From positions 1,178,001 to 1,242,000 of the forward strand of contig NC_009663.1 in NCBI RefSeq assembly GCF_000010345.1: DNA of 64,000 bases, read 5' to 3'. The notes under the pieces were generated by a model. It saw nothing but the letters and a program-made list of their open reading frames with translations, ran no database searches and had not been told where the DNA came from. The position numbers were made by a program, and so were the translations under genes. The DNA comes from Sulfurovum sp. NBC37-1 (lineage in GTDB: Bacteria; Campylobacterota; Campylobacteria; Campylobacterales; Sulfurovaceae). Within the stretch, counting starts at the first letter, position 1. Each line of letters starts with the position of its first letter. Of the stretch, positions 8,795-48,018 are shown piece after piece.

Positions 8795-9524
8795 ATAACT
8801 TCTGTGTTAGATAGTGGAACTACAGTTCATATTGTTTTGTAGGATACCATTTATTTATGCAGATATGTTAAAGTCTATAAAATTATTCTTAAGCATAGTA
8901 ATAAAATCTCTATTGATTAACATAATATAAATTCTATTAAAAAAGCAACTCTCTACTTCTAGGCATAAATGTGTAAAGGGAAAAGTGAATTTAAAAAGTA
9001 CTATTTGACTAAAATATAAAAATAACTTCAATAATAGATAAAACCTAACCTATTTTGTATTTTTCGAATGACTTCATGTATAAACATCTTTCCAGTGGCA
9101 CTATTCAGATTAATTTGTATTCGGACCATCTTTTATTAAATATAAAAAAATTTAAAATTTCTATTCTGAGCATTTTTCAGTACCAACAATAATCCATCTG
9201 AAATTTTTTGTCACAAGTAATAAATTTGTTTTAATCATTTTTTCAATTATTCAGTGTTTGTCTTTTTTTGAGTAAATGTAATTTTCGATATGGGGTACGT
9301 CATCCATGTATATTAAAAATTCAATCAAGAACAACAGTAAAGTAATAAATTTTATACTATTTAATATTATTATTCCCTTATTCTGGCATGCAAAGAAGGA
9401 TCAAAATCTAGAATAATATAATACTAATAAATATAATAATTACCCCTTCCTCTAACGATATCTGTATAGTTACAGTACCGATCTCAATAGATAGCGTATT
9501 TCTGGGCAGCAGACACCATTTAAA
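8795..9524. other. AT-rich stretch of about 730 bp without a gene
   Basis: I see no supported coding sequence on either strand. The composition is markedly richer in A and T than the flanking genes, with many stop codons in all frames and runs such as AAATATAAAAAAATTTAAAA. No transposase, tRNA or structured RNA was recognised. It leads into the TetR operator array. Confidence 0.6.
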
Positions 9525-39249: not shown

Positions 39250-41319
39250 TTAAACTTCTGCCGTTTTCTTCACCCTCTTCTTTTTGGGCTCTGGTTCAAC
39301 GAACTCCCCTTTGATCAACCCTGCCTCATGCAGGAACTGTGAAGGTTTGTAGTCTATTTTCTTGACTTTGTCGTACTGGGCAAGAGAAAGGTAGAGTTTG
39401 TCTTTTGCTCGTGTGACGGCCACATAGAACAACCTTCGTTCTTCTTCAATGCTGCTCATCATCTTTCTATTGGGAAAACGGCCGTCCACCAGATCGACTA
39501 CATAAACTTCCGGGAATTCCAGGCCTTTGCTGGCATGTACCGTCAGCAGATTCACCCCTTCCCCTTCACTGAGCTCTCCGCCGCCCAGCACCATGGCATT
39601 GACGAATCGGCCCAATTCTTTGTATTGTCGTGAAAGGTCGAGCAGCAGGTTGGCTTTACGCAAAATGCGTTCACGTGCCACTTTCTTCTTCTCTTCGTCC
39701 ACCTCTCCGGTTTTCAGGCGCCCTCTCTGTGTCGAGAGCATTTCAACGATCCCGCTGTAGAGTTTGGATGAAATGGCTGTCCGGAGAATCTTGGCAGGAT
39801 TCTTCTCGGATTTGATCTCATTCATCAGTCTGTAGAAATCATTGAAGAACTTTACACCGTCCTGAATGATCTTCGGGTGCTTGAGTAAAGGATGGCCGTA
39901 AACACTGTGAGGAAGATCGAGATGTTTGAAACGCGTGGCTGAACCGATCTCATGGTCATCGTCAAAGAGCCCGAGCTGAACATTTTTGTTGGGGTTAAGC
40001 TTGGGAAGTTCCGAATTAACCGGGTAGAGAACCCCCTGCATGAAATTACCGTTCCCAAAATGAAGAAAACACTGAAAGAACTCTTTGGAAAGTGCGGAAC
40101 CCACGCCTGATGCATATTCAAAAACATGTATGAACGCCATCATATCCTTGGGGTTGACCAGCAGGGAGAGCAGATCGAGAAGAAATTTGATCTCTTTGGC
40201 ATCGAAAAAACTTGTTCCACCCTTTCGTTTACACGGTATTCCCACTTCACGAAGACTCGCTTCTATCCCGTCTGCAGAAGAGTTGTTGCGGAAGATCACG
40301 GCAATGTTGTCATTGGGAACATGGGTATGCTTGATGCTCTGTGCAATAGCCTGATACTGTTCAAAGAGGTCTTTGTACATCAGCAGTCTTGGCGGGTGGG
40401 TCTTTCCGTGACGCCCTACTTCAAGTTTTTTGGGGTAAATGCGTTCGTTGCGCTCTATGACCCTGTTGGCAAGAGAAAGAATGGGGGCAGTAGAGCGGTA
40501 ATTCGTTTTGAGTGTAAAAACATTGGCATCGGGGTATCGCTTGGAAAAGGTAGCGATATTTTCTATATTCGCACCATTAAAGGCGTAAATACTCTGATCA
40601 TAATCTCCGACGCAAAAAAGCGAACGTGGTTTGAGTGTATCGATGAGCGCTCCCTGAAGCGTGTTGGTGTCCTGGTATTCATCTACCAGTACCTCTTCAA
40701 AGTGTATGGTGTTCTCCTCAAGATGACTTTTGATACGCAGCAGCAGGTCATTGAACGAAGCAAAACCGTAATCGATCTTCTCCTTCTCAAACTCCTGCAC
40801 AATGTCCATATAGGCATCCATAATCACTTCATGATCTGGGTACTTTTCCAAAAACCACTCATCGAATCCCTCAAGGGAGGCATTTTGGTACAGAGAATAC
40901 ATCTCGTAAAGGTAGGTGGCCGAAAAAGGCGCCAGAGGCAGGTTCATTCGCTCAAAATTTCGTTTTTCGTAAATACTCCTGAAAAGTGTTTTGAGTTCTG
41001 AAGGCTGTTTGAGCGCAAGGTTGGGGTGCAGTTCTTTGAGCCATCGGTAGGAGACGGCATGAAACGTACCTGACTCGATACGCGATACGACTTTTTTTGG
41101 GAAATACCTCTCCAGACGGGCGATCATCTCTCCTGCAGCTTTGTTGGTAAAGGTCAGCAGAAGGATCTTCGAAGGGTCCGTGCCTTCATTTAGAAGATGG
41201 GCGATACGCCCGACGATGGTTGAAGTTTTCCCTGTCCCGGCGCTGGCGATGATGAGATTTTGTCCCAGAGATGCGGTGGCAGCGCTGAGCTGTTCAGCGT
41301 TGAGTGTGCTGAGTGGCAA
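39250..41319 (-). CDS. UvrD/Rep-family ATP-dependent DNA helicase
   Basis: This 689-residue superfamily 1A helicase has motif I IIASAGTGKTSTIVGRI, motif II VDEYQDTN, motif III GDYDQSIYAFNGA, motif IV TNYRST and motifs V-VI LTVHASKGLEF and VAVTRAKDKLYL. It should unwind DNA 3'-5' in repair or replication restart. Length is normal for PcrA/Rep. The reading frame starts with TTG directly after the stop codon of the 112-residue gene, so translation probably couples to it. The C-terminus is basic (PKKKRVKKT). Confidence 0.93.
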   Translation of the reverse strand: MPLSTLNAEQLSAATASLGQNLIIASAGTGKTSTIVGRIAHLLNEGTDPSKILLLTFTNKAAGEMIARLERYFPKKVVSRIESGTFHAVSYRWLKELHPNLALKQPSELKTLFRSIYEKRNFERMNLPLAPFSATYLYEMYSLYQNASLEGFDEWFLEKYPDHEVIMDAYMDIVQEFEKEKIDYGFASFNDLLLRIKSHLEENTIHFEEVLVDEYQDTNTLQGALIDTLKPRSLFCVGDYDQSIYAFNGANIENIATFSKRYPDANVFTLKTNYRSTAPILSLANRVIERNERIYPKKLEVGRHGKTHPPRLLMYKDLFEQYQAIAQSIKHTHVPNDNIAVIFRNNSSADGIEASLREVGIPCKRKGGTSFFDAKEIKFLLDLLSLLVNPKDMMAFIHVFEYASGVGSALSKEFFQCFLHFGNGNFMQGVLYPVNSELPKLNPNKNVQLGLFDDDHEIGSATRFKHLDLPHSVYGHPLLKHPKIIQDGVKFFNDFYRLMNEIKSEKNPAKILRTAISSKLYSGIVEMLSTQRGRLKTGEVDEEKKKVARERILRKANLLLDLSRQYKELGRFVNAMVLGGGELSEGEGVNLLTVHASKGLEFPEVYVVDLVDGRFPNRKMMSSIEEERRLFYVAVTRAKDKLYLSLAQYDKVKKIDYKPSQFLHEAGLIKGEFVEPEPKKKRVKKTAEV

Positions 41320-41658
41320 TTATATGTGACCGAGAATGTAGTAAGTATTTTTGTTGTCGACTTTTTTCAGGTTCAGTTTGTACTTATCCGCCCAGTGGTT
41401 GACGATCTTGTTGAAGGCACTGAGGTTGTCTGCCGAACTATCCTCGTTACATTTGATCTTAAGGTAGTTCTCCGAATTGGACATAGCAATATACCCTTTT
41501 TCCACGGCAAGTGCATCGTTAAATGATGGGAGATGCGGAGAAAATTTTTCAAAACCGTCCGTATTTGCGATGATATCTTTGATCTGATTAAGTGTCTGCG
41601 GGGTCTGCGAATAGCCGAGTTGAATCAAAAGTGCTTCAGGTGTTAGTTCGAGATGCAT
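41320..41658 (-). CDS. Uncharacterised 112-residue protein upstream of the helicase
   Basis: This soluble protein has no recognised domain. It begins MHLELTPEALLIQLGYSQTP and has a helical middle and a strand-rich C-terminus (LNLKKVDNKNTYYILGHI). AGGA stands 6 bases before the ATG. Its stop codon abuts the TTG start of the helicase gene, so the two are co-translated; it could be a helicase partner. That is inference from layout. Confidence 0.75.
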   Translation of the reverse strand: MHLELTPEALLIQLGYSQTPQTLNQIKDIIANTDGFEKFSPHLPSFNDALAVEKGYIAMSNSENYLKIKCNEDSSADNLSAFNKIVNHWADKYKLNLKKVDNKNTYYILGHI

Positions 41659-41744: not shown

Positions 41745-42308
41745 TTAAAACAGTGTCTCTTTTGGTGTCTCTACTCTGGCAATAAGGTCTTTGTAGTGTT
41801 CGACGTTCTGAAAAGCTTTTTCATAACGCCATCGTAGTACGAATTCAATGATCTCATTCTTGAGTGTAGGATCAAGTGTTTCCGCTTTTCCAAAATATCC
41901 GAGTGAAACGTTTTTGGCTTTTTTCTTTCCATTCTTGTCTGGTTCGTAGGTAATAGCGATGATTTGGATATATTTTCCTTCTCGTACTTCTCCAAAATCT
42001 TCTTCTTTGAGACCGATACCGGATAGATTCATTGCTTTATAGATAAAGATATCATCAAAATTCGGAGATTTCTCAAAGATCTTCAGCTTTTCATAAAGAG
42101 CCTTGACTCTCGCGATATTTTCTTCTCTGACACCCTCAAAGCTGATATTTTCAACCGGTTTTTCATTCTTTTTGGCAGGTGTGGGAACGGGTGATACTTT
42201 GGGTTCTCTTTTCTCCTCTGTACTGACATCAGCAGCTGCTTCTTTCTGTGACAACTCCTCTTCCAAACGACTGGTAAGTGCTTTAAGTTTGTCTAAACTA
42301 TTTGACAT
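41745..42308 (-). CDS. Uncharacterised protein under a c-di-GMP-I riboswitch
   Basis: This 187-residue soluble protein has an acidic N-terminal coiled coil, a Pro/Lys-rich linker (about 38-54, PKVSPVPTPAKKNEKP), and a C-terminal domain of mixed helices and strands with GKYIQIIAITYEP and VSLGYFGKAETLDP. No family is recognised and there is no signal peptide. A GTG one codon before the ATG is possible. The AAAGGGAACC ribosome region lies 34 bases or less after a cyclic di-GMP riboswitch, so this protein is probably an output of c-di-GMP signalling, perhaps in motility, adhesion or biofilm. Confidence 0.8.
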   Translation of the reverse strand: MSNSLDKLKALTSRLEEELSQKEAAADVSTEEKREPKVSPVPTPAKKNEKPVENISFEGVREENIARVKALYEKLKIFEKSPNFDDIFIYKAMNLSGIGLKEEDFGEVREGKYIQIIAITYEPDKNGKKKAKNVSLGYFGKAETLDPTLKNEIIEFVLRWRYEKAFQNVEHYKDLIARVETPKETLF

Positions 42309-42341
42309 CACGGTTCCCTTTTCTTTAAATAATCAAAGTCT

Positions 42342-42403
42342 GGCAACCCGGCTATCTTCATGAGACCCGTGGCTTTCCGTCCCTGTTTCGCAACAGGTTT
42401 GGC
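42342..42403 (-). ncRNA. Cyclic di-GMP-I (GEMM-I) riboswitch
   Basis: Read on the minus strand from 42403 to 42342, the RNA has the GEMM-I core. CCTGTT-GCGA-AACAGG is a stem with a GNRA tetraloop; GGACGGAAAGCC is the conserved joining segment; ACGGGTCT...AGATAGCC forms the tetraloop-receptor stem; and CGGGTTGCC is the 3' closing strand. The last helix has one C-C mismatch with GCCAA. It lies 34 bases ahead of the 42308 start, with no terminator between. GGTTGCC of the switch can pair with GGGAACC at the ribosome site (6 of 7 pairs), suggesting translational control in which ligand binding frees the start. That mechanism is inferred. Confidence 0.87.
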
Positions 42404-42593
42404 ATATATTAGATAATATAGTACTGCACATTTTATAATATTAACTTTAAATCATAGTGAATAATATCAAAATTTTTCTATTTTTTAATGTGAAAAGCTG
42501 AAAATAATAATATTATTTAATATTCTATTTGTTCTTCTACTCTTAACCAATCTTTTGATAGAATCCCTATACATTAAAAAGAGGTGGAGAACA

Positions 42594-43862
42594 GTGCAGT
42601 ATCTGGAGATAAAAGGCGGGAAAAAACTGAGTGGCAGCGTGACAATAAGCGGTGCGAAAAATGCGGCGCTCCCTGTGATCGCTGCAACGATCCTGAGTGA
42701 CAAAGATGTAACCCTCACCAATTTGCCAAATGTGGTCGATATCCGTACACTGCTCAAACTGCTTACCATGCTTGGCGGCGTGGTGGAACATGAGGGAACG
42801 GTTGCAAAGATCAATAATGGATCCATCACCTCGACCAAAGCGGTCTATGAGATCGTCTCGCAGATGCGAGCCTCCATTCTGGTACTGGGTCCCCTGCTCA
42901 CCCGTTTTGGTGAATGTGAAGTCTCCTTGCCCGGCGGGTGTGCCATCGGGCAGCGCCCTATTGACCTGCATCTCAAAGCACTGGAAGCCATGGGTGCAAA
43001 GATTACGATAGAAAGCGGTTATGTCCATGCTGTCGCTCCCAACGGACTGCACGGTGCAAAGATCATTTTTGACAAGATCACGGTAGGCGGTACGGAAAAC
43101 ATCATTATGGCAGCCGCACTTGCCAAAGGAACGACCATCATCATCAATGCGGCCAAAGAACCTGAGATCGTACAACTATGTGAAATGATTGCTGATGCCG
43201 GTGTAAAGATAGAAGGTATCGGTACCAATGAACTCACTATAGAAGGCACGGACGGTATACCGCTTGCATTTAAAACCGTAGAGATCATCCCCGACCGTAT
43301 CGAAGCGGGGACCTACCTTTGTGCCGGTGCGATCACAAAATCGGAGATTACATTAAACAAGGTCAATGCGGAGCATATACGCGCTTCTATTGACAAACTT
43401 GAAAGTATGGGGTTCACCTTTGATATAGCTAAGGACAGCATTACCATTCATCCTACAGATATTATCAACCCTGTCAATCTCATCACGATAGAGTATCCGG
43501 GATTTCCTACCGATATGCAGGCACAGTTCATGGCTGTTGCTGCTATGGCTGATGGGGAAAGCCTGATTGAGGAGCGTCTTTTTGAGAACCGATTCATGCA
43601 TGTAAGCGAATTGAACCGTCTGGGTGCCGATATCTGGCTCAAGGGGAGTGTTGCTGCGGTAAAAGGAGTAAAAGAACTTCATGGTGCAGATGTCATGGCG
43701 ACCGATCTGCGGGCCAGTTCTGCTTTGGTCCTTGCCGGGCTTGTAGCCGAGGGAACGACCAATGTCCGTCGTATCTACCACCTTGACCGAGGTTATGACA
43801 ACCTGGAAGGCAAACTGGCTGCGCTGGGTGCGGATATCGTCAGAAAAGAAGAAGAGAAGTAA
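42594..43862 (+). CDS. murA: UDP-N-acetylglucosamine 1-carboxyvinyltransferase MurA
   Basis: This 422-residue enzyme makes the first committed step of murein synthesis, moving enolpyruvate from PEP to UDP-GlcNAc. It starts [20 protein letters not shown] and contains the PEP-site loop [15 protein letters not shown] with the fosfomycin-sensitive Cys, GAKNAALPV near the N-terminus, and the C-terminal [16 protein letters not shown] 42594 is used as start, preceded by AGGTGGAG; an ATG frame 39 bases upstream lacks the conserved residues. It is followed by a CYTH gene 5 bases on. Confidence 0.95.
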
Positions 43863-44343: not shown

Positions 44344-47300
44344 CTAACGCATCAGATACTGGGTCATTTCTTGCTTGGGGATGGGTCTTGAATAATGGTA
44401 GCCCTGTATGATGTAACAGCCGTTCTCCAACAAGTAACGTACCTGATCCCTGTGCTCCACACCTTCTGCTATGATCTCCAGATGCAGGCTCTCCGCCAGT
44501 GCGATCACAGCATTTGTAATGGCACAATCCTCGGTATTGTACGGTAAGTCAAAAATAAAAGTTTTGTCTATCTTCAGCTTGTCTACGGGTAGACGCTTCA
44601 GATAGGCCAAAGAGGAATAACCGGTACCAAAATCATCTATAGATATCTTGATCCCCATTTGGTTGAGCATATAGAGTTTTTTAATGGAGTGCTTTGGGTT
44701 GAGCATTACCTGGGTCTCCGTTATTTCGAACGTCAGCCATTTGACCTTGAAACCGGTTTTCAGTATTGTATTCTGCAGTGTGTAGAAGAAGTTTTCTTTC
44801 ATTAGCTGTGAAATAGGAAGGTTCAAAGAGAGTATGCCCGGGTTAAGACCTATATGATACCACTCGACCATATCGCTCATGGCCTGATGCATGACATAGT
44901 AGTCCATCTCCCTTATAAGACCCGTCTCTTCTGCCAAAGGTATGAATGCATCAGGCAATATAAGCCCTTTTTCGGGATGTTCCCATCGTACAAGCGCTTC
45001 TAGCCCGACTACACTCCTGTTACGCGCATTGATCTGTGGCTGATAATAGACACGCAGCTGGTTCTTTGCTATTGCTTTGCGTAACTCCTTCTCCATCGTG
45101 GCTTTTTCCATAGCCAGGTTGGTCATTTCGGATGAGTAGAACTGGTAATTGTTCCTGCCCACTTCCTTGGCCTTGTACATGGCACTGTCGGCATATTTGA
45201 GCAGGTCGTTCTTGTAGACCGCATCCCTGGGGTAAAGACTGATACCGATACTGGCGGTCACATGTAGTGTTTGCCCCTCTACTACGACCTCCTCTTTGAG
45301 TGAACCCATCATCTTCCCAGCTATCTTTGCTGCAGATTCAGGTGTATTGAGCTCATGTACCAATACGGTAAACTCATCCCCTCCCAGACGCGAAAGCGTA
45401 TCTTCTTCCCTGATACACTTGGAAAACCTGTGTGAAACGATTTTCAGTACTTCATCTCCCAAATGGTGCCCGAGTGTGTCGTTGATAAGTTTGAAGTTAT
45501 CCAGATCAATGAAGAATACCCCGAACTTTTCATTATGTCTATGCGCATAGGTGATCGTCTGCTCCAGCCTGTCGTTAAAGAGCGTCCTGTTTGGGAGCTG
45601 GGTGAGCGGGTCATGGTACGCCTGGAAGTTAAGCTGTTTGGTCTGTTCCAACAACTCCAGTTCTATCTCTTTTTTTTGGCTAATATCCTGTGAATAACGT
45701 GTAATACCAATGATCCTCTTTTTCTCATCTCTTAGAACTGAAGCAGATACATCCGTATAGATCATCTTTCCCTCTTTAGTCTGTTTGCGTATCTGGTCTC
45801 GATAGGATCCGTACAGAAGTGTCTGCATTTTCATCCATTGTGCCTTTTTAAGCTCATCCTCCGGATAGAGAATATCAATGTTCCTCCCGATCATTTCAGA
45901 AGCATCATACCCCAGTAACTCGGTTGCCCCATGGTTCCAGTGAATAATTTTGTTGTCCAGGTCAGTTGAGATCACCGCATCATGTATCTGTTCGAGTATC
46001 TGTGCCTGTTCTATCTCTTTCTTTTCGATGGCTACCAAATGGCTGATATCAAGGTTGAAGATGATCATAGCATCCCTGTTATGGTATTTTCCGTACTGTG
46101 CATAGGTCTGTACTGGGTATTTACTATCATCCTTTTTTGTGTAGACAGTCCTGTTAAGTACCGTACCATTGGCCCGTATCTCTTTTTCAAATTCCCTAAG
46201 CTGTTTATGGGTGATCTCTCTGTTGATATCCAGAATGGAAAGTCTGCATATCTCTTCACGGGTATAACCCAGTTTCCGGATAGCCGCATCATTGGCGTAC
46301 AGGTAGCGGAATGTGCCCAGCTCAACGATCAGTACTTCACCGCTGGCGTACTCTATGATGTCGCCCAGTTCTTTGTTCTCCTGTTTTAACCTGAGCTGTT
46401 CCGTGATATCGAGTGTCGTTCCAACGATTCTGTCCGGCTCCCCTTGCTTGTCGAAGAGCATCTTGGCATTGATCAGCACCGTGATGATCTCTCCGTCCTC
46501 ACGTCTGACACGAAGCGAAACACTTTTGACCTTTCCATCCTGAAGGCTTCTCAGTCCCTCATAGGCAATATGTCTGTCTTTTTTAACCACCCGTGAAAGG
46601 AAGGTGTCGAGTGTCGGCTGTGTGTTTTCCGGATCCAGCTGGTAGATATCATAACTTCTTTTCGACCATTGTGCCGTATTGTGTTTCAGGTCTATTTCCC
46701 AGCTTCCAAAATGTCCGATCTGCTGTATTCTGTGCAAGGCCTCTTTTTGTGCTTCTATCACCCTGGTTTTTTCTTCAAGCTTCTGAAATTCCTTTTGAGC
46801 CTCCTGCATATTTACATTTATGAAATGGGATAATGCTTTTGCTGATGCCTGATATTCATTCAAAACAATTTTTTGTTTCACTATTTTTTTATCTGTTTTA
46901 TGAGATGATTCGCTGAGGCCCAAAATCGTCATTGTCTGATTAAGCAGCGCCTTTTTGCCTGAAAAGGAGAAAAATTCACCATAGGTGAAAAATCCCGATA
47001 CCGGCGCTACACTCTGTAATGGTTTTGTTTCCTGTTCAATCAACTCGGGCAGGAATCTTCTTCTAGCCATACATGAATAGATAAAGATGCATTCAACAGG
47101 CTGGGAAACAATATCCTGGCCAATCTGTTCGGACTGATCCAAAAGCATCTTGGCATCACCGTAGCCGAAATAGACTGTGTCTCCCTGATGAAAGTTCCCC
47201 GAAAAAGAGAGAGAACCATCCTCATGTACCGACAGAATTGCTCTGGCCGTAAGGTCACCTCCTTTTTTAATGATCAGCGGAAATTCAATACCAATGGCAG

Positions 47301-48018
47301 GCAGTTTTTGGGCCACTTCTTCACCAAAATATTTTTTATATACGTCATAGGCCGACATGTCATCAATGGTATAGACACGGTTTCTATCGACTTTCGTTAC
47401 AACAAGGCTTCTGCCAATTGGCTTCCAGTTGAAATTGTATTTTGTATAGATATGCAGCTTCGGATTGGATAACGCTACTCCTACGGCTCCGCGTGAAATA
47501 ATCTGTTCTCCCGTAAATACATAAGTGTTTTTAAACTCTGCATAGTCCCCGGCCATTCCGCCTGCTACAGTCAGTTCCGGACAGACTGCATCGATGCCTC
47601 TAAGAAACTCTTCACCATTGCTTTTGGTACCGTCCAAAAAAGCAATGAGTACTTTTTTGTCTTCTTGAGAAGTAACGGCCTCTGCCAGTGTCTGGCCTGT
47701 CTCATGACTATCCATCTTACCGTCAGCGTCTACGCAAACAGGGTAGAGGACGGTATCTTCAAACTGTGTCAGTGAAATGACATGGGTATGGGTAGTAACT
47801 TTACCCGAACAGATCTCTCCGTCGGTTGTTGCCCCTATAATGACCGCACGGGGGAAAAGTGAGGTGATCTCATTCGTCATTACCTCGATTTTGGTTTTGT
47901 CGGTATAGCTGGTGAAAACTTGGATCAGGAGTTGATCATTGTCAGCAATATCCACTTGTAGGACAAACTCTTGAAAATGTTGCTTGTCTGTATAGTAGGT
48001 ATTGACTGTTCTCATCAC
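44344..48018 (-). CDS. FIST-PAS-GGDEF-EAL signalling protein
   Basis: This 1224-residue soluble protein begins with FIST and FIST_C sensor domains (about 10-375), which bind small ligands such as amino acids. Three PAS domains follow (about 425-530, 545-655, 665-785; for example IIHWNHGATELLGYDASEMIGR). The GGDEF domain has the intact active site SRLGGDEFTV. The EAL domain has VGLEALVRW, ETQVMLN, DDFGTGYSSLAYL and EGVEH. It could make or break c-di-GMP; both sites look intact. It lies 2.0 kb from a c-di-GMP riboswitch, with murA and CYTH between. Confidence 0.93.
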   Translation of the reverse strand: MMRTVNTYYTDKQHFQEFVLQVDIADNDQLLIQVFTSYTDKTKIEVMTNEITSLFPRAVIIGATTDGEICSGKVTTHTHVISLTQFEDTVLYPVCVDADGKMDSHETGQTLAEAVTSQEDKKVLIAFLDGTKSNGEEFLRGIDAVCPELTVAGGMAGDYAEFKNTYVFTGEQIISRGAVGVALSNPKLHIYTKYNFNWKPIGRSLVVTKVDRNRVYTIDDMSAYDVYKKYFGEEVAQKLPAIGIEFPLIIKKGGDLTARAILSVHEDGSLSFSGNFHQGDTVYFGYGDAKMLLDQSEQIGQDIVSQPVECIFIYSCMARRRFLPELIEQETKPLQSVAPVSGFFTYGEFFSFSGKKALLNQTMTILGLSESSHKTDKKIVKQKIVLNEYQASAKALSHFINVNMQEAQKEFQKLEEKTRVIEAQKEALHRIQQIGHFGSWEIDLKHNTAQWSKRSYDIYQLDPENTQPTLDTFLSRVVKKDRHIAYEGLRSLQDGKVKSVSLRVRREDGEIITVLINAKMLFDKQGEPDRIVGTTLDITEQLRLKQENKELGDIIEYASGEVLIVELGTFRYLYANDAAIRKLGYTREEICRLSILDINREITHKQLREFEKEIRANGTVLNRTVYTKKDDSKYPVQTYAQYGKYHNRDAMIIFNLDISHLVAIEKKEIEQAQILEQIHDAVISTDLDNKIIHWNHGATELLGYDASEMIGRNIDILYPEDELKKAQWMKMQTLLYGSYRDQIRKQTKEGKMIYTDVSASVLRDEKKRIIGITRYSQDISQKKEIELELLEQTKQLNFQAYHDPLTQLPNRTLFNDRLEQTITYAHRHNEKFGVFFIDLDNFKLINDTLGHHLGDEVLKIVSHRFSKCIREEDTLSRLGGDEFTVLVHELNTPESAAKIAGKMMGSLKEEVVVEGQTLHVTASIGISLYPRDAVYKNDLLKYADSAMYKAKEVGRNNYQFYSSEMTNLAMEKATMEKELRKAIAKNQLRVYYQPQINARNRSVVGLEALVRWEHPEKGLILPDAFIPLAEETGLIREMDYYVMHQAMSDMVEWYHIGLNPGILSLNLPISQLMKENFFYTLQNTILKTGFKVKWLTFEITETQVMLNPKHSIKKLYMLNQMGIKISIDDFGTGYSSLAYLKRLPVDKLKIDKTFIFDLPYNTEDCAITNAVIALAESLHLEIIAEGVEHRDQVRYLLENGCYIIQGYHYSRPIPKQEMTQYLMR

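Follow-up and report, generated by a model that had tools for sequence, protein, structure and literature searches.

A class I c-di-GMP riboswitch most likely forms the start of the transcript that encodes a conserved, uncharacterized 187-residue protein of Sulfurovum sp. NBC37-1; it would hide the Shine-Dalgarno (SD) site in its free form and release this site in its locked form, so that the ligand acts as an ON signal for translation, and it appears to be a lineage-specific addition to the gene. We assign a probability of about 0.8 to this reading as a whole, which builds on covariance models, comparison with related genomes and modelled RNA folds. The window comprises the whole stretch of DNA analyzed, with a length of 64 kb. 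The features of the locus are collected in Table 1.

Table 1. Features of the riboswitch locus and its neighbouring genes; positions refer to the window.
Feature	Position	Strand	Basis or remark
Likely -10 element TACTAT	42418..42423	-	Orthologues without riboswitch have a similar sequence at this place
c-di-GMP class I (GEMM-I) aptamer	42338..42412	-	RF03167, RF01051, R1, family covariation
G20 equivalent (Vc2), G, predicted c-di-GMP contact	42403	-	27 nt 5' of the A47 equivalent, as in Vc2
P2 stem-loop CCTGTT-GCGA-AACAGG, GNRA tetraloop	42382..42397	-	
A47 equivalent (Vc2), A, predicted c-di-GMP contact	42376	-	G in the RF03167 consensus
P3 stem; its 3' strand CCGGGUU is also part of the predicted anti-Shine-Dalgarno strand	42345..42374	-	
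C92 equivalent (Vc2), C, predicted c-di-GMP contact	42343	-	Sequence
GGTTGCC: P3 3' strand, C92 and next C; predicted to pair with the Shine-Dalgarno region when ligand-free	42342..42348	-	Minimum-energy fold
GGGAACC: Shine-Dalgarno core GGGA and adjoining AACC, predicted to be hidden without ligand	42312..42318	-	Modelled SD openness
187-aa protein, function unknown, putatively controlled gene	41745..42308	-	ORF; no Pfam/NCBIfam family above cut-off
112-aa gene, function unknown, syntenic, 3' of the 187-aa gene	41320..41658	-	
UvrD/Rep-type helicase gene, downstream, syntenic in Sulfurovaceae	39250..41319	-	PF00580, PF13361
murA (EPSP-synthase family), divergent neighbour	42603..43862	+	PF00275

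The window was scanned with Rfam 15 at gathering thresholds. The single match was RF03167 (c-di-GMP-I-GGC) at 42412-42338 on the minus strand with 59.2 bits (E 2e-11), exceeding the family threshold of 59 bits by only 0.2 bits. At the same positions RF01051 (c-di-GMP-I/GEMM-I) reached 65.9 bits (threshold 35). Additionally, a model named R1 was built from 32 Sulfurovaceae aptamers, the window aptamer being one of its training rows; it gave 84.7 bits here and 6.8 bits at the next-best place in the window. Across the 32 aptamers, 98.4% of the cells were paired, and 11 of 18 pairs had changes on both sides, a number as high being found in none of 500 shuffles; pair 14-38, for example, covaries from C-G to U-A in six of the 32. 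The window aptamer has P2 with the GNRA tetraloop GCGA, P3 and the interhelical C-G, retains all 18 core pairs and all ligand contacts, and scores on par with other family members. Judged from its sequence, the segment is a well-formed class I c-di-GMP riboswitch aptamer. A P1 closing helix was not found in the window beyond the contiguous UCU/AGA with three possible pairs, which probably lies outside the transcript; P1 is weak in many family members as well and, being the variable part, was not treated as defining for membership in RF01051. Further matches in the leader to CRISPR-DR44, lncRNA and snoRNA families, obtained at low threshold, were regarded as chance.

The original prediction had named a c-di-GMP-I riboswitch with its core at 42403-42342 on the minus strand, and this is borne out by Rfam, by ligand contacts that fall exactly where expected and by the strong covariation seen across the family; the search with the Rfam GEMM-I covariance model, which had been suggested as a check, gave the significant RF01051 match. 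Both the coordinates of the core and its distance from the gene were correct, as the ATG at 42308 follows 33 bases past 42342. The open reading frame from this ATG encodes 187 residues, as had been read. A GTG directly 5' of it is a possible alternative start giving 188 residues; the aligned orthologues start with M-S-S/N at the ATG.

The likely -10 element upstream of the aptamer can be compared with the epsilonproteobacterial motif gnTAnaAT (PMC3847290), and transcription would start near 42411, at the 5' edge of the aptamer. Such an element is conserved in orthologue leaders with or without a riboswitch; the aptamer thus appears to have been placed at the beginning of the native leader. The predicted transcription start is overlapped by a perfect inverted repeat of 6 bp, ATATTA-TC-TAATAT (42419-42406); orthologues show a similar stretch whether or not they have a riboswitch. 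The repeat is a putative operator or promoter feature.

For folding of the leader, the transcription start was set near 42411 and the locked aptamer was represented by a forced fold with the three contact nucleotides left free. Pairing between GGTTGCC at the 3' end of the riboswitch and GGGAACC at the ribosome site had been proposed from the sequence, and both elements indeed pair in the minimum-energy fold of the ligand-free leader, with 4 + 2 bp around one G-G mismatch: GGUU (42348-42345) with AACC (42315-42312), and CC (42343-42342) with GG of the SD site. This pairing removes the base of P3 and C92 from the aptamer. Aptamer formation and hiding of the SD site are hence mutually exclusive in the thermodynamic prediction, and the ligand-bound fold is the one that frees the SD site. 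To lock the aptamer, 3.7-4.9 kcal/mol are needed (4.9 in the ensemble), a price that a tightly bound ligand could pay according to the model. Modelled openness of the SD core rose from 0.006 in the free leader to 0.573 with the aptamer locked, i.e. about 95-fold. As controls, 36 chimeric leaders were modelled in which an orthologue without riboswitch supplied the SD region behind the window aptamer; openness changed by about 1.1-fold in the median and by at most about 14-fold, so that none matched the contrast of the window. Considering only the energy of the duplex between P3 strand and SD region, the window was not exceptional, since 12 of 58 controls were as low. No terminator was found in the leader.

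Translational ON control is probably the best reading of this leader, because the modelled locking of the aptamer frees the SD site beyond all 36 controls and a terminator is lacking; the ON switch of the original prediction is thus backed by thermodynamic folding with a control, a purely computational result. At low c-di-GMP, GGUUGCC, consisting of the 3' strand of P3 and the two following Cs, would pair with GGGAACC and hide the SD site. At high c-di-GMP, the ligand would lock P3 and C92 into the aptamer, the SD site would be freed and translation of the 187-aa protein would be turned on. We infer that the RNA of the window binds c-di-GMP and also, in this way, the direction of control in the cell.

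An aptamer for c-di-GMP might instead act in the OFF direction, or control mRNA stability or processing, without any hiding of the SD site. Class I switches include ON as well as OFF types (PMC9262584), and three of the six riboswitch leaders found at orthologous loci showed no rise in modelled SD openness upon locking of the aptamer. Openness increased 11-fold in L167, which has an architecture like that of the window, and changed little or not at all in L141, L138 and L146; the L146 leader forms the pairing but does not open, and those of L141 and L138 do neither. We nevertheless consider this alternative unlikely for the window, where the SD site is hidden in the ligand-free fold and exposed once the aptamer is locked, and where the leader is devoid of a terminator.

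Aptamers of this type are common in the family. Five GEMM-I matches including that of the window were found in the Sulfurovum sp. NBC37-1 genome, four of them above the RF01051 cut-off, and 49 of 100 sampled Sulfurovaceae genomes had matches, with up to 16 per genome. In the genome studied here, aptamers precede the gene of a PilJ-domain protein, that of a large surface protein combining DUF11, Big_9 and CUB domains, and those of two further large proteins, one of which has a P_proprotein domain. Genes following the family aptamers encode PAS, PilJ, CAP, DUF11, bacterial Ig, cadherin-like, adhesin-type, HD and outer-membrane domains. The PAS, PilJ, CAP, adhesin-type and HD domains among them fit control by c-di-GMP, and the aptamer-linked gene set is an ordinary c-di-GMP regulon. 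The genome contains 18 GGDEF domains and no match to PilZ anywhere; therefore, riboswitches may be a main readout of c-di-GMP in this Sulfurovum. Near the riboswitch locus, at 44344-48018 on the minus strand, a FIST-PAS-GGDEF-EAL protein of about 1224 residues is encoded beside a CYTH-domain gene, and relatives of both genes are located at the same locus in L138.

Several aptamers of the family differ in form or arrangement. At L004:1501-1599, L005:1501-1597 and L100:301-399, all located before large proteins, the internal loops are altered, with GCCACCCC...GUUCGG, GCCUCCC...GUCCGG and GCCACACC...GGCCGG replacing GCCAAACC...GGACGG; these three possibly represent a variant or relaxed GEMM-I group. 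The L100 aptamer is followed by a second, near-identical copy. Tandem c-di-GMP-I aptamers precede a single gene in L075 (301-382 and 462-543) and in L080 (two on the minus strand), and contig C37 of G009 carries two divergent GEMM-I aptamers, 9102-9177 (-) and 9350-9438 (+), separated by about 170 bases.

The 187-aa protein is conserved in Campylobacterales; its N-terminal tail varies, whereas a domain spanning about residues 57-180 is highly conserved. Its gene is nearly always single-copy: 80 of 100 Sulfurovaceae genomes carry it, and a phylum-wide sample of 298 genomes contains 55 with it, among them members of other families of the order. It lies divergently beside murA in 103 of 110 loci; for murA, the synteny search used a start at 42603, the mechanical ORF start being a TTG at 42555. 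The usual order in Sulfurovaceae is the 187-aa gene, then the 112-aa gene, then the UvrD-type helicase gene. The 112-aa gene is likely to have its own promoter, judging from TACAAT in the 86-bp gap.

Searches with the 187-aa protein against Pfam, NCBIfam and PHROGs gave nothing above the cut-off, and this includes any Pfam family of c-di-GMP-binding domains. The profile A2 had no match among PDB chains at E<=1; profile A4 gave only CagD (E 0.11, limited to 34 helical residues) and Rad50 (E 0.41), both taken as chance. AlphaFold predicts the conserved domain (pLDDT 89.6) as a helix, a short helix, three strands and a long C-terminal helix, and a Foldseek comparison of two AlphaFold models with the PDB revealed no resembling solved structure (best E about 0.5). 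A basic beta-hairpin in the model would suit contact with nucleic acid; this is only a guess.

The proposal that the gene product is a candidate c-di-GMP effector did not hold up well: this is an old single-copy gene that keeps its place beside murA, and the riboswitch is absent in nearly all relatives. Because these relatives keep the gene without a riboswitch, the 187-aa protein is not a dedicated c-di-GMP output. It is a long shot that the protein is a new component of c-di-GMP output in Campylobacterales, e.g. a nucleic-acid-binding regulator of novel fold, and that its capture by a riboswitch in certain Sulfurovum lineages reveals this link in a genome devoid of PilZ.

To trace the distribution of the riboswitch, a covariance model was run on the window, on 80 named orthologue loci from Sulfurovaceae and on another 12 loci. 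Besides the window, an aptamer precedes the 187-aa gene at five of the 80 named loci (L167, L141, L138, L146 and L142), some of the 80 being incomplete 5' of the gene; all five belong to Sulfurovum. A tree built from four proteins encoded nearby splits the six riboswitch loci into two groups, namely the window with L138 and L141, and L142 with L146 and L167; within the latter group, L170 is devoid of a riboswitch. This distribution requires three changes on the tree, and there may have been one gain of the riboswitch with later losses. In the copy at L142:2895-2973, C replaces G20 and one P3 pair is broken; as a consequence, this copy is probably a degenerate and inactive riboswitch. A change of G20 in Vc2 lowers binding 30,000-fold (PMC4744006).

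Many riboswitch-less Sulfurovum orthologues have a short hairpin GGGC...GCCC directly 5' of the SD site, which may be the native regulatory leader that the riboswitch replaced. Examples occur within the last ~50 nt before the ATG in L139, L140, L154, L156, L158, L159, L166, L173 and L178; the hairpin also exists in the versions GGGU/ACCC, AGGC/GCCU and CGGG/CCCG, and its 3' CCC could pair with GGG of the SD site as well. Apparently, the riboswitch is a lineage-specific addition that places an old gene, usually devoid of such a switch, under control of c-di-GMP. The near absence of P1 in the window, the limitation of the riboswitch to two small Sulfurovum groups and the L142 copy without G20 and one P3 pair could also be explained by chance capture of a riboswitch that is now decaying or only weakly functional. 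For the window this is quite improbable, as its copy has kept every core pair and contact, scores like other members of the family and belongs to a leader with a switching contrast larger than that of all 36 controls.

The identity of the ligand was deduced from the contacts known for Vc2, in which G20, A47 and C92 contact c-di-GMP (PMC4744006). The equivalents of all three are present in the window, and the interhelical C (C44 of Vc2, same reference) is found at the expected spacing. Pair 21-46 is C-G in the window and G-C in Vc2; C-G is the rule in Sulfurovaceae, where this pair (13-39) is C-G in 30 of the 32 aptamers. GEMM-I members selective for cGAMP have A at position 20. According to our reading of its name and consensus, RF03167 is marked by a G in the column of A47, where the window has A; the 'GGC' label of the window aptamer should therefore, on its sequence, not be taken as a ligand variant. 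That the aptamer is a GEMM-I variant recognizing a different ligand, either 3',3'-cGAMP or that of a 'GGC' variant, is highly improbable: the best-kept Rfam family is c-di-GMP-I-GGC, but G20, A47 and C92 are the c-di-GMP set, A47 stands where the GGC model has G, RF01051 outscores RF03167 in bits, and the only departure is the swap of the 21-46 pair that is usual in Sulfurovaceae.

Sulfurovum sp. NBC37-1 is a deep-sea-vent bacterium. A literature search, with most subscription papers outside its reach, yielded no paper on c-di-GMP riboswitches in Sulfurovum. The type of switch is already known, and its presence before this conserved uncharacterized gene is limited to a few close relatives. The window offers a clean and testable pair of riboswitch and gene in a chemosynthetic group that seems to have received little study with regard to c-di-GMP outputs. 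Furthermore, the family provides a natural record of gain and loss of a riboswitch at an existing conserved gene, as close relatives have the riboswitch, lack it or carry a copy without G20. The predicted regulation by c-di-GMP also suggests growth conditions under which a phenotype of the conserved 187-aa protein may be sought.

Among known systems, Vc2 of Vibrio cholerae, the type member of RF01051, shares with the window P2 with a GNRA loop, P3, the residues G20, A47 and C92, the interhelical C and the spacing of 27 nt between G20 and A47; it differs from the window, where P1 is nearly absent and another gene follows. RF03167 resembles the window as its best-kept Rfam match over the full length. 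Vc1, located upstream of gbpA in V. cholerae, likewise begins its leader with a class I aptamer, and expression of gbpA drops when c-di-GMP is lowered (PMC4744006). The Vc1 leader is long and leads into gbpA, whereas that of the window has roughly 100 nt and precedes the gene of an uncharacterized, cytosolic-looking protein. Other GEMM-I elements of Sulfurovaceae (e.g. L002, L003, L009 and L088) share the C21-G46 variant and a similar P3 with the window but, taken together, precede PilJ, PAS, adhesin-like and CAP genes.
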